NCBI GenBank assembly: GCA_017622995.1
Contig: JAGAQA010000060.1
Span: 1 to 39,425, forward strand
Direction of reading: 5' to 3'
DNA length: 39,425 nucleotides
DNA from: Oscillospiraceae bacterium
Lineage (GTDB): Bacteria > Bacillota > Clostridia > Oscillospirales > Oscillospiraceae
In this document: positions 11,779-15,407 of the stretch, in pieces
How positions within the stretch are numbered: the stretch's first letter is position 1
Layout: the number at the start of each line of letters is the position of its first letter
The notes under the pieces: generated by a model
Told to the model about the DNA's origin: nothing
The model's input: only the letters and a program-made list of their open reading frames with translations
Database searches by the model: none
Translations under genes and position numbers: made by a program

Positions 11779-13449
11779 CTAATCGGCGGGGACGAACTGC
11801 CTCTGGAAGGTATCCACGGGCACCGGCTTGGAAAAATAGTACCCCTGAATGGTGTCCACACCGCACTGGCGCACGATTTCACACTGCTCCTGGCTTTCCA
11901 CGCCCTCGGCGCATACCTGGGAGCCGCAGATTTCTGCCAGTTCGTTCATTACTCCGATGAGCCGGACGGCTTTCCCGCCCTTGGCAATGTTGTCCACAAA
12001 TACCTTGTCGATCTTTACCACGTCAAATTTCAGCTGGTTCAGAATGTCCATGGAGGAATAGCCCGTTCCGAAATCATCAATGGCGAAGCGCACCCCCAGG
12101 TCGCGCAGCTCAGAGATGATTGTGCCCAGGCGGCTGATGTCCAGCAGCCGGCACCGCTCGGTGATTTCCAGGCACAGATTCTCCGGCGGATACGCTGCTG
12201 CCGTCAGATTCCGCTTGACCATCTCCACAAAGGAATGCTGCTTGAGCTGCTCGTAGGCAATGTTGACGTTTAGTTCGAACGCCGGGCAGCTTGTCAGGAA
12301 GGGCTTCGTGTCCTCCATGGCCCTGCGCAGAATCCATTCGCCCAGCTTCACAAAGGCCGGGTCGTTTTCAATGATGGGGATGAACCGGTTGGGCGGAACC
12401 AGGCCGTACTCCGGGCTGCGCCAGCGAAGCAGGGCCTCGCAGCCGCTCAGGGTGTGGGTATTGGCATCCATAATCGGCTGGTAGTACAGCAGAAAGCCCT
12501 GGCAGTCATGCTCGATGCTCCGGCGGATGGTGTTAATCAGGGTCATCAGGTTTGTGCGGGTTTCGTCAATCTCGTTTCGGAAAATCTGAAGCGCTCCGTT
12601 GCCCCGCTCCCGGGACAGGTTGTACGCATAGCCCAGGCAGGAGAACATGGCCTGGGGGTTAACATCAAAGGTATCGATTTCCAGTGCGCTGCCACATACC
12701 TGCAGATTGGGATGATAGCCGTCAATCTCCAGCCTCTCGCAGATGTGCTGCCGCACCGTTTCGTATCGCCCGGCCAGCTGTTCCATGGTCAGCGAGCGGG
12801 TCAGCAGCACAAAGCGCACCCCATCCGCCCGGTACAGCACACCCTCGTTGCAGAAAATCTGCTTCAGCTCCTGCACCAGCTTGTGGATGACGATATTTCC
12901 GAAATCATAGCCCCACATTTCATTGATCGTGGAGAACCGCTTGATGCCGATCATCATGATGTTGGCCCTGGCCTGCTTGCTGTACAGCGCGTCCAGGTGC
13001 TGGAACAGGCCGTACTGGTTTTGCAGTCCCGTCAGGGAATCCACACTGTTCACCAGACCGTTGTTCCGGATCGACCCGGCGAAATACAGGGGCTGCCCGT
13101 CGGAACCGCGGATCACCGTGCCCCGGCAGGTGCACACCACATACTGACCGTCCCGGTTTCTGGCACGGTACTGCATATCATGCCAGCCAACCTGGCCGGA
13201 AAAAATGGCATCAATACTCTGGCTGTAGTTTTCCCGATCCTCCGGGAGAATGTGCGCTTCCCAGATCTTGCCGCAGCCCACCATGTACTCTCCCGGAAGG
13301 CCAAAATAGGTGATGGCCTCGGCTGACCAGCGGGAATAGTCGTACGCCAGGTCGCAGAGATACACATATGCGCCTTCCGCCACAATCTCAAACGCGCGGA
13401 ATAGTTCATCCAGATACTCTTTTCTGCTGGGTTCCATTTCATATTCCAT
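11779..13449 (-). CDS. Cyclic-di-GMP phosphodiesterase (PAS - degenerate GGDEF - EAL)
   Basis: 556 residues, no membrane segment. A PAS-like domain (about 20-125) is followed by a GGDEF domain (about 130-290) in which the signature is replaced by ADGVR (in YRADGVRFVLLT), so cyclase activity is lost. The EAL domain (about 300-550) keeps the metal and catalytic residues: EALLRW, the Asn of NVNIAY, EITERC, DDFGTGYSS, VKIDK and EGVES. It should hydrolyse c-di-GMP to pGpG, with the PAS and dead GGDEF domains as sensors. The start is uncertain: ATG 13449 has a GAGG about 12 bases away, but an overlapping frame from ATG 13520 reads a protein-like N-terminus (MKWQVYGKNGYWFYDDM), so a frameshift is possible. 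Confidence 0.88.
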   Translation of the reverse strand: MEYEMEPSRKEYLDELFRAFEIVAEGAYVYLCDLAYDYSRWSAEAITYFGLPGEYMVGCGKIWEAHILPEDRENYSQSIDAIFSGQVGWHDMQYRARNRDGQYVVCTCRGTVIRGSDGQPLYFAGSIRNNGLVNSVDSLTGLQNQYGLFQHLDALYSKQARANIMMIGIKRFSTINEMWGYDFGNIVIHKLVQELKQIFCNEGVLYRADGVRFVLLTRSLTMEQLAGRYETVRQHICERLEIDGYHPNLQVCGSALEIDTFDVNPQAMFSCLGYAYNLSRERGNGALQIFRNEIDETRTNLMTLINTIRRSIEHDCQGFLLYYQPIMDANTHTLSGCEALLRWRSPEYGLVPPNRFIPIIENDPAFVKLGEWILRRAMEDTKPFLTSCPAFELNVNIAYEQLKQHSFVEMVKRNLTAAAYPPENLCLEITERCRLLDISRLGTIISELRDLGVRFAIDDFGTGYSSMDILNQLKFDVVKIDKVFVDNIAKGGKAVRLIGVMNELAEICGSQVCAEGVESQEQCEIVRQCGVDTIQGYYFSKPVPVDTFQRQFVPAD

Positions 13450-13532
13450 ACGCGCCAGCCCTCTTTCGTCATATCGTCATAAAACCAGTAGCCGTTTTTG
13501 CCATAAACCTGCCACTTCATCTTTTCTTGGTT

Positions 13533-13560
13533 ATATTAGCACTTTGAACAGAATTGTCAA
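13533..13560 (-). promoter_or_regulatory. Predicted promoter of the EAL gene
   Basis: On the minus strand a perfect TTGACA (complement of 13555-13560), 16 bases, TAATAT (13533-13538). Transcription would begin near 13525, just before the ATG at 13520 of the overlapping upstream frame. Confidence 0.55.
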
Positions 13561-13626
13561 CAGGCCTTTGAAAAAAACTGTGCATCATTGCGGCGCTTCG
13601 CCGAATTTGCCGACTGCATTTTGCCT

Positions 13627-13766
13627 GTGCGGGCAACAGGACTCGATCAAATCAGGGAGCAAACGCCGTCCAGCCGGCGTTTGGCAATGCCCCACCGGGG
13701 CATTGCATTGAAGTGGGTTCGAGTCCAATGCCGTTACCATCAAAAAAGCACCCCTGAAGGGGTGCT
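13627..13766. repeat. tRNA-Leu 3'-end repeat unit A
   Basis: Begins with 20 bases identical to the tRNA-Leu 3' end (13627-13646). The inner element is bounded by GGACTCGA (13639-13646) and its reverse complement TCGAGTCC (13719-13726) and contains two hairpins (13660-13668 with 13675-13683; 13684-13693 with 13697-13706). It ends with the stem GCACCCC/GGGGTGC; the following T-run is replaced by a GATAATA-type repeat at 13767-13796 and a small GCCCC/GGGGC hairpin (13797-13809). Confidence 0.85.
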
Positions 13767-13816
13767 GTTATCTATTCCTTATTATCTATTATCTGAGCCC
13801 CGAAGGGGCGTTTCCG

Positions 13817-13961
13817 GTGCGGGCAACAGGACTCGATCAAATTAAGGAGCAAACGCCGTCCAGCCGGCGTTTGGCAATGCCCCGCCGGGGCATTGCATTG
13901 AAGTGGGTTCGAGTCCAATGCCGTTACCACCAAAAAAGCACCCCTGAAGGGGTGCTTTTTT
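13817..13961. repeat. tRNA-Leu 3'-end repeat unit B
   Basis: Same plan as unit A: tRNA-Leu 3' end 13817-13836, inner inverted ends GGACTCGA (13829-13836) and TCGAGTCC (13909-13916), two internal hairpins, then a complete bidirectional terminator hairpin 13933-13961. It differs from unit A at only a few positions in the core. Confidence 0.85.
13933..13961. terminator. Bidirectional terminator hairpin in repeat unit B
   Basis: AAAAAAGCACCCC, a TGAA loop, then GGGGTGCTTTTTT: a perfect stem with a T-run on both strands. Confidence 0.8.
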
Positions 13962-13965
13962 GATG

Positions 13966-14114
13966 GTGCGGGCAACAGGACTCGATCAAATCAGGGAGCA
14001 AACGCCGTCCAGCCGGCGTTTGGCAATGCCCCACTGGGGTATTGCATTGAAGTGGGTTCGAGTCCTGCCGCTGAATCCGACCAACAAAAAAGAGCCCGCA
14101 AAGGGCTCTTTTTT
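13966..14114. repeat. tRNA-Leu 3'-end repeat unit C
   Basis: tRNA-Leu 3' end 13966-13985, inner ends GGACTCGA (13978-13985) and TCGAGTCC (14058-14065). The second internal hairpin has a C-to-T change (GGGGTATTGC) that keeps pairing as G-T. The right flank after TCGAGTCC differs from units A and B (TGCCGCTGAATCCGACCA), and the terminal hairpin has a different stem. Confidence 0.85.
14086..14114. terminator. Bidirectional terminator after tRNA-Leu
   Basis: AAAAAAGAGCCC (14086-14097), GCAAA loop, GGGCTCTTTTTT (14103-14114). On the minus strand it lies two bases after the CCA end of tRNA-Leu and should terminate it. Confidence 0.85.
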
Positions 14115-14116
14115 GT

Positions 14117-14199
14117 TGGTGCGGGCAACAGGACTCGAACCTGCACGCTTACGCAGTGGAACCTAAATCCACCGAGTCTACCAATTCCACCATGCCCGC
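14117..14199 (-). tRNA. tRNA-Leu, anticodon UAG, CCA encoded
   Basis: The minus strand starts GCGGGCA at 14199 and ends TGCCCGC-A-CCA at 14117. The acceptor pairs over 7 bases, the anticodon stem is GTGGA/TCCAC with loop TTTAGGT giving anticodon TAG (reads CUA and probably other CUN codons), a long variable arm is typical of class II tRNA-Leu, and the T-loop is TTCGAGT. The terminator 14086-14114 follows at once. The last 20 bases before CCA are repeated three times further downstream. Confidence 0.97.
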
Positions 14200-14237
14200 G
14201 GATACGCGTTTCAGTCTACCATGAAGGGAATGGTTTG

Positions 14238-15407
14238 TCAATGGAAATAGCCGCGCCCTTTTTCACCGCGTTTGTTCCGCCGTTTGTTGCGGTACAGGGC
14301 CTGATCGGCGGCGCCAATCAGGTCGGGGATGGTCAGGGCGGGATCATAATAGGCCAGGCCCATGCTGATGGTCAGCTCGTAGGGCTTTCCTGAGGAGGCA
14401 TTGAAGGCATCCAGGGCATCCAGCAATTCCTGGCGGAACCGGTCAACCTCCTCGTCATCCCGGGCTTCCAGAACCACAAAAAACTCATCACCGCCGAAAC
14501 GGGAAATAAGGCCCTTGAAACGGGAAGCTACCTGCTTCAGAATCTCGGCCAGCAAAATGAGGGCGGTATCTCCTTCCAGGTGGCCATATTGATCGTTGAT
14601 CCGTTTGAAATCATTGATGTCAATCATATATGTGGCCAGCTTCCGGTCCCCACCGGATTTCTGGCGGTTGATGCATTTGTCCAGGTAATGGAGCATTTTG
14701 GACCGGTTGTTGATCTGGGTCAGGGGGTCAATGGTAATCTGGGCCTGCTGGAGGTTGACAAAGACCTGAACACAGGCCAGAGTGGCGCCCATGCAGGCAA
14801 TGGAAATACCGGTATACAGAGCCTGGATCACACCGGTGATCAGCGGAAAGACCACCAAGGAGGCGATGGACAGATATTCGGACCGGTGGGCATAGTTGGA
14901 TTTCTGGAACAGCGCGTACAGAGAACGCACACCGATCACCACCAGATAGCTGTAGCAAAGCACCAGAAGCAGGGGATACAACGGCCCCTTGGTGTAGCGG
15001 CCCTGTGCGTCAATATAAAAATAGAATTTCCCATAAAGGCTCAGAGGGATGGTGACCAGCTGAATGAGCAGGGGCAGGCTGAAGAGGAACCATCTCCTGC
15101 GGTCATGGAACCAGGTGTCGCCGAATTCACATTCGGCGTAGAGAAAGCCGAGAAAGCTGATGGTGGCGGCAGAGTAGAAGAACAGGACATTCATGATCTC
15201 TACAACCCAGGGGGCGGGACTGATAATCCGGTTTTCCTGCAAACCGCACAGCATATCCAGCAGCGCGTAGACAATCAGGCTGATCAGCAGGCCGCGGAAA
15301 AACCGGGCATTGGGACGGGTATCTCCGTTCCCCATATGGCAGCTGAAAAGGAGCAGTATAATCAGAATGCAGAAGGTATTGATTTCAAGGTAGGAAAGCG
15401 CACGCAC
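14238..15407 (-). CDS. Membrane diguanylate cyclase (GGDEF)
   Basis: 389 residues from GTG 15407 (GGAGGAG at the complement of 15414-15420, 6-base gap). Six or seven membrane helices fill residues 1-220; a GGDEF domain (about 225-380) follows, starting with DPLTQINNR and carrying an intact RFGGDEFF active site near residue 308. The inhibitory RxxD site normally five residues before GGDEF is absent, so product inhibition at that site is not expected. It should make c-di-GMP in response to an unknown membrane signal. A TATAAT (complement of 15438-15443) is a likely -10. The EAL protein 800 bases away would act oppositely, and the sugar transferase on the other side is a plausible output. Confidence 0.92.
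   Translation of the reverse strand: MRALSYLEINTFCILIILLLFSCHMGNGDTRPNARFFRGLLISLIVYALLDMLCGLQENRIISPAPWVVEIMNVLFFYSAATISFLGFLYAECEFGDTWFHDRRRWFLFSLPLLIQLVTIPLSLYGKFYFYIDAQGRYTKGPLYPLLLVLCYSYLVVIGVRSLYALFQKSNYAHRSEYLSIASLVVFPLITGVIQALYTGISIACMGATLACVQVFVNLQQAQITIDPLTQINNRSKMLHYLDKCINRQKSGGDRKLATYMIDINDFKRINDQYGHLEGDTALILLAEILKQVASRFKGLISRFGGDEFFVVLEARDDEEVDRFRQELLDALDAFNASSGKPYELTISMGLAYYDPALTIPDLIGAADQALYRNKRRNKRGEKGRGYFH

Follow-up and report, generated by a model that had tools for sequence, protein, structure and literature searches.

Behind a tRNA gene of the window (the whole stretch of 39,425 nucleotides that was analysed), the 3' end of that gene is repeated three times in tandem. What are these repeats, and how did they come to lie there? 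The gene, the one tRNA-Leu placed here by ARAGORN and Rfam, has the anticodon TAG and occupies 14117-14199 on the minus strand. A 20-mer shared by the gene and the repeats, GTGCGGGCAACAGGACTCGA, had been reported in a preliminary description of the locus. We confirmed it at 13627, 13817, 13966 and 14119, all on the plus strand; neither strand of the window has a further copy. The reported spacings of 190, 149 and 153 also held, the first being longer because 41 bp of extra DNA (13770-13810), with a further small hairpin, sit between units A and B. Units A, B and C are direct repeats of 149 nt, with identities to the reference of 100, 95 and 74% and BLAST E-values inside the genome of 4e-73, 9e-64 and 8e-45, so that the repetition is far above chance expectation.

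Read on the tRNA strand, every unit follows one plan: a terminator-like palindrome (hp0), an inverted copy of the tRNA end (a*), hairpin 1 (hp1), hairpin 2 (hp2) and a direct copy of the tRNA end (a). The tRNA-Leu gene is the anchor, and its nucleotides 55-69, together with most of the CCA end, are copied in each unit. The unit as first delineated was therefore right as to the repeat and incomplete as to its content, since the tRNA 3' end is held twice per unit, inverted and direct. All features lie on the minus strand. In unit C, hp0 (14080-14120) is a perfect 18-bp palindrome that runs from the ACCA of the tRNA through a terminator-like hairpin to TGGT. The stretch from a* to a follows at 13978-14064 (model match 98.5 bits), with a* at 14054-14064, hp1 at 14023-14045 and hp2 at 13999-14022, and a (13964-13985) is exactly nt 55-76 of tRNA-Leu, with CCA. 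Unit B has hp0 at 13932-13961, its a*-to-a stretch at 13829-13915 (102.9 bits; hp1 13874-13896, hp2 13850-13873) and a at 13815-13836; unit A has hp0 at 13744-13769, its a*-to-a stretch at 13639-13725 (103.4 bits; hp1 13684-13706, hp2 13660-13683) and a at 13625-13646. The copy of nt 55-76 reaches CCA intact in unit C only, the last base being altered in unit B and the last two in unit A. All three units contain the features noticed earlier, namely two hairpins, inverted ends derived from the T-loop and a terminator-like hairpin. A change in copy C that had been taken for compensatory proved to be a single one: on the tRNA strand it reads GCAATACCCCAGTGGGGCATTGC and gives an A.C mismatch, where A and B have GCAATG...CATTGC. 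Compared with shuffled sequences, folding as RNA on the plus strand gave z scores of -5.8 and -7.9 for units A and C, and folding as DNA gave -7.5 and -8.4 for unit C on the two strands.

The three units are tandem copies of a widespread element family of about 150 bp, which we call E. With the unit as query, we obtained 10 matches in the home genome, the query included, and matches in 15 of 60 genomes from a draw of relatives that included the home genome; in two genomes (G039 and G054) the terminator alone was matched. Reading of eighteen loci with a tRNA pointed to one shared layout for Leu, Val, Gln, Glu, Arg and Ser tRNAs; in one of these loci (L018, from G039) the element is absent. A covariance model was built from 22 copies (24 pairs, 14 with double-sided changes). 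It found 24 matches in the home genome and matched 87 of the 101 genomes of the genus (home included), among them 24 of the 28 more complete ones. In an order-wide draw, it matched 2 of 295 genomes, the home genome itself and a second member of the genus. Scanning GTDB genomes with an exact pattern returned 101 stretches, and the 80 listed were all titled as Oscillospiraceae or Clostridia MAGs. On the tRNA strand, E generally consists of hp0, a* (the reverse complement of the T-loop region of the host tRNA), two to three conserved hairpins and a (nt 55-69 of the host tRNA, often extended to CCA). A type II variant, reached via the divergent relative L024, occurs in another family of the order, with DNA matches in 17 of 63 genomes and 4 of 13 genera. 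Its parts are arranged in the same way (tRNA, hp0, a*, hairpins, a) around another core, some of the loci read by eye being incomplete, and a tRNA (Gln, Ser, Arg, Ala, Leu or Pro) lies at most 80 nt upstream in 18 of the 23 loci read. The source data are draft genomes throughout, and several E copies lie at contig ends. One further E was seen behind a tRNA-like 3' end on a 20.7-kb IMG/VR viral contig (L358, 703-806). A chimeric one (L172, 12102-12199), with a normal right half (hp2 and the a of tRNA-Val) and a different left hairpin, lies 8.5 kb behind an intact E.

Do the copies consistently abut tRNA 3' ends? In the fetched loci, which were mostly the best-scoring matches rather than a random draw, 335 model matches were reduced to 324 by removing overlapping shadows and to 257 distinct contexts by collapsing identical ones, a step that also merges identical copies within one genome. 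Of the 257, 158 follow a tRNA or tmRNA gene at a distance of no more than 80 nt, at 31 kinds of gene (30 anticodons and the tmRNA). The others were located behind another E (40), behind cargo with an upstream E within 3 kb (9), behind a tRNA 3' fragment (5), at a contig start (12) or elsewhere (33); some of these last adjoin tRNA ends that ARAGORN missed, and some do not. The count is not circular because the loci were fetched through element matches, not through tRNAs. This is the opposite of an element placed mainly away from tRNAs. The median distance from tRNA to E is 51 nt (5-95% range, 45-60 nt). Of the elements within 100 nt of a tRNA, those on the tRNA strand number 158 downstream and 4 upstream, and the opposite strand has none. 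E also grows in tandem, as in the window.

The arms of the element are tailored to the local tRNA. In the first set, 94 of the 99 E that follow a tRNA were compared, the other 5 having no T-loop motif. At each position of nt 56-69, a and the host tRNA are identical in 96-99% of these E, with 77% at nt 55 and 67-83% beyond nt 69; against other tRNA types the agreement at variable positions is 25-47%. Complementarity of a* to the host in the same set is 97-100% over nt 54-62 and declines past nt 63. A larger set of 147 of the 158 E, 11 having been dropped by the anchor test, was used to examine the end. The copy of nt 70-76 is lost or replaced (at most 4 of 7 bases) in 46 of them, one merely because of a contig end, and these 46 keep nt 56-69 at a mean identity of 96.6%. 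The element therefore ends at tRNA position 69, whatever the sequence there. Over nt 54-76, a* agrees with its own tRNA in at least 16 of 23 bases in 54 of 158 E, compared to 3.3% for other tRNAs. The cores cluster by tRNA and by genome: among 95 E with genome handles, the nearest neighbour sits at the same tRNA end at a frequency of 0.32 versus 0.06 when shuffled, and in the same genome at 0.14 versus 0.03. Thirteen pairs of cores at least 85% alike lie at tRNAs that differ in nt 55-69, one pair inside one genome, and in 25 of these 26 E the tRNA alongside is the better match to a. This indicates that cores change tRNA while the arms stay local, and the arms would then be re-matched at the new tRNA. 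In L026, a* is of one tRNA type and a of another; a transfer reading of this case was dropped, as one point change suffices.

Insertion could be followed directly at tRNA-Leu(TAG) loci of relatives. Reading 28 of them by eye, we found E in 8, while one ran off the contig end and the rest were without it; the fetched locus L219 lies outside the 28. In the occupied locus L198, a unit of 148 nt lies between the tRNA and the terminator that directly follows the tRNA in the empty locus L201. The flanks of the two agree over 45 columns with two mismatches and one gap (score 73; none of 18 other empty loci scores above 18). In a second empty and occupied pair (L206 and L218), 25 nt are common behind the insertion before the sequences diverge. 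With measured units of 148 and 153 bp, both locus pairs display a clean insertion of about 150 bp behind tRNA-Leu. Copy number and sequence are accordingly not identical in relatives, the presence of E at one tRNA locus varying between species. Together with the tRNA anchoring, this variation with clean boundaries supports the earlier suggestion of a non-autonomous mobile element.

The hairpins themselves were then compared to those of RNA genes. Across the family, in an alignment fitted to the model and a set mostly picked by a fixed hairpin-1 pattern, 95.4% of cells are paired, with 345 double-sided changes in 19 of 24 pairs, and none of 500 shuffles was as good. Wobble pairs are almost absent from hp1 (G.T 0.85%, A.C 0.42%; 236 of 250 distinct E) and hp2 (G.T 1.35%, A.C 1.40%; 237 E). 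The corresponding values are 4.0 and 3.3% in hp0 (242 upstream stretches) and 2.66 and 0.67% in hp3 (129 E), an intermediate case with some G.T excess. As a control, the acceptor and T stems of 77 adjoining tRNAs gave G.T 8.7% and A.C 0.2%. Hairpins kept as RNA should resemble these tRNAs; hp1, hp2 and hp0 do not, which argues for DNA rather than RNA, with hp3 in between. The idea of a T-arm-derived RNA, raised at the outset, is disfavoured by this, hp1 and hp2 exhibiting little or no strand bias relative to the adjoining tRNAs and hp3 some. Among Rfam 15 families, tRNA (RF00005) was the only one to reach its gathering score in the window, and all other matches in 13400-14300 up to an E-value of 10 stayed below gathering.

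Genes can lie between successive E. We identified 11 such intervals of 308-8554 nt, seven of which, 0.6-2.3 kb long, hold candidate ORFs. At a tRNA-Tyr, a Phd/YefM-like frame (below the Pfam cut-off) and ParE lie between two E; toxin-antitoxin cargo is known from integrons. An HTH gene is found between E in two species (L019 and L056; 71% identity), in L056 together with a small Cys-rich frame. The locus L264 carries an array of four elements, and the 2.3-kb interval of L260 encodes a 424-aa frame (1468-2742) without a Pfam or PADLOC match, the C-terminal part of which we take to be reminiscent of small endonuclease domains. Ten cargo proteins were scanned; eight had no Pfam match and eight no PADLOC match, and the other two are of HTH type. 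In L139, one of the cargo intervals, a separate copy of the tRNA accompanies the second E, so that this case may simply be a duplication. Some of the stretches flanked by E consist of ordinary DNA, mobile or chromosomal. The one in L172 contains metabolic genes, and L180 (387-9224) has an E behind tRNA-Gly(GCC) and, 8.5 kb away, a weak second match, with a serine recombinase and a MobA/MobL relaxase in between. In the home genome, the 34.4-kb contig C41 (L175 and L176) has the same E near both ends, and contigs C43 (tRNA-Leu CAA) and C51 begin with it (L177 and L178); C41 is either a 34-kb E-bounded region or the result of assembly breaks at repeats.

If E is mobile, which enzyme moves it? Mobilisation by a tyrosine recombinase, which had been suggested as one possibility, gained no support from the recombinases tested. 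PF00589 had ten matches in the home genome (G000), none on the window contig (C52). Seven of these tyrosine recombinases, three further short matches lying outside the test, were scored against the integron integrase model TIGR02249, and the best, a XerD homologue, reached 137.1 bits versus a cut-off of 265. The survey was extended with PF00589 to 14 relatives, and ORFs of 11 genomes were compared, a selection from the matches of each. One integrase family, from L193, occurred in four E-bearing genomes and in none of the four E-free genomes compared. At 40% identity or more, among the matches listed, it is present in 29 of 101 genomes, 28 of 87 with E and 1 of 14 without (Fisher p 0.06), and among those matches it is missing from the E-rich genomes G117, G077, G011, G008 and G078. 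We rejected it as a dedicated mover on this weak, non-significant trend and these absences. Two strong Xer-like matches are present in 10 of 10 E-bearing relatives, so that XerC/XerD fit the distribution as candidates; they are likewise present in the E-free G006, G020 and G119, and orthology was confirmed by BLAST for part of the genomes. The 98% complete congener G034, which lacks E, has a single PF00589 match, of another family and not Xer-like. No enzyme family tested tracks E.

Traces that may come from other recombination at tRNA genes were noticed as well. In L113 (38-1012), the end of a serine recombinase gene (Pfam Recombinase, zinc ribbon) is joined, upstream of hp0, to the final bases of a tRNA-Val copy at about nt 69/70. 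Reading by eye upstream of E showed an identical junction sequence in L025 and a similar one, at a tRNA-Gln, in L124. A serine-recombinase element may integrate exactly at this junction. Elsewhere, pieces of tRNA-Leu covering nt ~34-76 and ~1-39 lie kilobases apart (G079:C12, G108:C10, G027:C48, G081:C93 and others), which suggests that other elements have integrated at the anticodon loop.

The explanation that we prefer, and to which we give a probability of roughly 45%, is that E is mobile DNA made of folded, attC-like recombination sites anchored on tRNA genes and served by a recombinase acting in trans. If E folds as single-stranded DNA in vivo, a* would pair with a, and a double-stranded copy of the tRNA T-arm would be rebuilt atop the hairpins. 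A recombinase supplied in trans would recognise this folded site, as the integron integrase does attC, and would join it, perhaps by way of circles, to the T-arm/acceptor part of a tRNA gene with the same 15 bp. The tRNA gene would thereby take the role of attI, and the hp0 palindrome would re-supply the terminator. Repeated rounds would give tandem arrays, and genes caught between two E (Phd/ParE-type, HTH proteins, small proteins) would act like cassettes. Simple integration of a circle cannot account for similar cores in which both arms, a and a*, are fitted to different tRNAs. We also entertain, tentatively, a self-customising form of mobile DNA, in which the conserved hairpin core moves, copies from each local tRNA both a* as its inverted guide and a as its direct end, and finds its target by DNA-DNA pairing. 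A base-pairing guide, as in IS608, or correction by template switching could each contribute to such re-matching of the arms.

Several rival explanations address the same facts. E could be an IS200/IS605- or REP-like element moved by an HUH (Y1) transposase, with the hairpins as recognition structures and a* as a DNA guide pairing with the T-arm (target, left cleavage) and with a (right cleavage). The DNA-type hp1 and hp2, the complementarity of a* to both the tRNA and a, and the fixed end after nt 69 would all suit such an enzyme, and so would targeting in IS608, which picks its targets by base pairing and has been engineered to 12/17-nt sites (PMC5934647). REP-associated-transposase-like genes are indeed frequent (PF01797 in 56 of 101 genomes; NF047646 in 61 of 101, its cut-off being reached in 5 only), and the same gene of this kind lies about 1.1 kb from E in L263 and L322. 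However, neither model has a match in G117, G011, G035 and G001, which bear E and are rather complete, and NF047646, the one family tested for association, is found in 55 of 87 genomes with E versus 6 of 14 without (Fisher p 0.24, not significant), so we regard this rival as doubtful. More doubtful still is a process with no dedicated enzyme, in which template switching during replication copies and corrects the palindromes at tRNA ends, inverts the local tRNA end, perfects the hairpins and expands the tandems. The nearly perfect hairpins, the clustering of cores by tRNA and genome and the 22-23-nt inverted copies of the own tRNA end in 3 of 158 E are what template switching would produce, but on its own it does not carry a conserved, fixed-loop core to as many as 31 kinds of tRNA/tmRNA gene, and it explains neither the fixed end at nt 69 nor the cargo between E.

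Duplicated tRNA 3' ends are the usual att trace, and the units could be left-over att sites, scars of ordinary tRNA-targeting islands or phages. The serine recombinase and relaxase between two E matches in L180 and the serine-recombinase end joined to the tRNA-Val end in L113 are in keeping with this. Nevertheless, one conserved core recurs at all these tRNA kinds, the units are far below island size and in tandem, and no tested integrase family tracks E, so that such scars are already unlikely. Least probable of all, and in our judgement very unlikely, is a structured RNA: a tRNA-processing switch, a small RNA or an antisense to the tRNA 3' end. The strong covariation, the terminator-like hp0, the 20 nt complementary to the tRNA and the G.T excess in hp3 would fit an RNA, but the mismatch frequencies of hp1 and hp2 set against those of tRNA stems, the polymorphic presence and the lack of any Rfam family other than tRNA at the gathering threshold speak against it.

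How does the preferred reading, folded recombination sites on tRNA genes, compare to known systems? Integrative elements at tRNA sites, ICEs and satellites duplicate the tRNA 3' end and restore the tRNA, and they usually carry kilobases of genes and use one integrase for each tRNA site. E shares the direct repeat of the tRNA 3' end at insertion; it differs in being about 150 bp long, without an integrase of its own, and in occupying 31 tRNA/tmRNA kinds. To our knowledge, REPs have no tie to tRNA genes. E shares with them a short, non-autonomous, palindromic form based on DNA hairpins, the traits given for REP elements and TnpA-REP (PMC8266576), whereas its arms fit the host tRNA and several E-rich genomes lack a REP-like transposase. 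According to PMC5934647, IS608 reads a tetranucleotide target by base pairing, and its targeting has been extended in vitro. Target choice by an element-borne pairing sequence, as in IS200/IS605 elements, is conceivable for a*, but E uses at least 9 nt plus a 15-nt copy and contains no tnpA. The integron attC is described as a single-strand hairpin site read by its structure (PMC2727003). With integron cassettes, E has in common a folded hairpin site with paired outer arms, arrays and small cargo, a resemblance of architecture only. Unlike them, it is anchored on a tRNA gene rather than on attI beside intI, its arms copy the tRNA, it has two to three hairpins, many copies are without cargo, and there was no integron integrase among the recombinases tested. 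In its presumed way of working, E comes closest to the integron cassette site, and judged on the features tested it is neither an integron nor a REP/RAYT pair nor a conventional tRNA island. A literature search of open-licence papers, preprints being outside it, found no comparable element among the titles and opening lines of abstracts listed, which is weak evidence of absence.

In many gut bacteria of one lineage, E seems to represent a type of mobile DNA not described before. If so, copying of the target would be the means by which such DNA recognises it, with essential tRNA genes serving as docking platforms without being destroyed, and it would provide a route of gene carriage in a large group of uncultured gut bacteria. 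The finding bears on the old question of how one recombination system may serve many different tRNA genes. Were the self-customising form true, one family could reach any tRNA gene, and the tRNA set of these bacteria would be a bank of addressed, integron-like cassette platforms.
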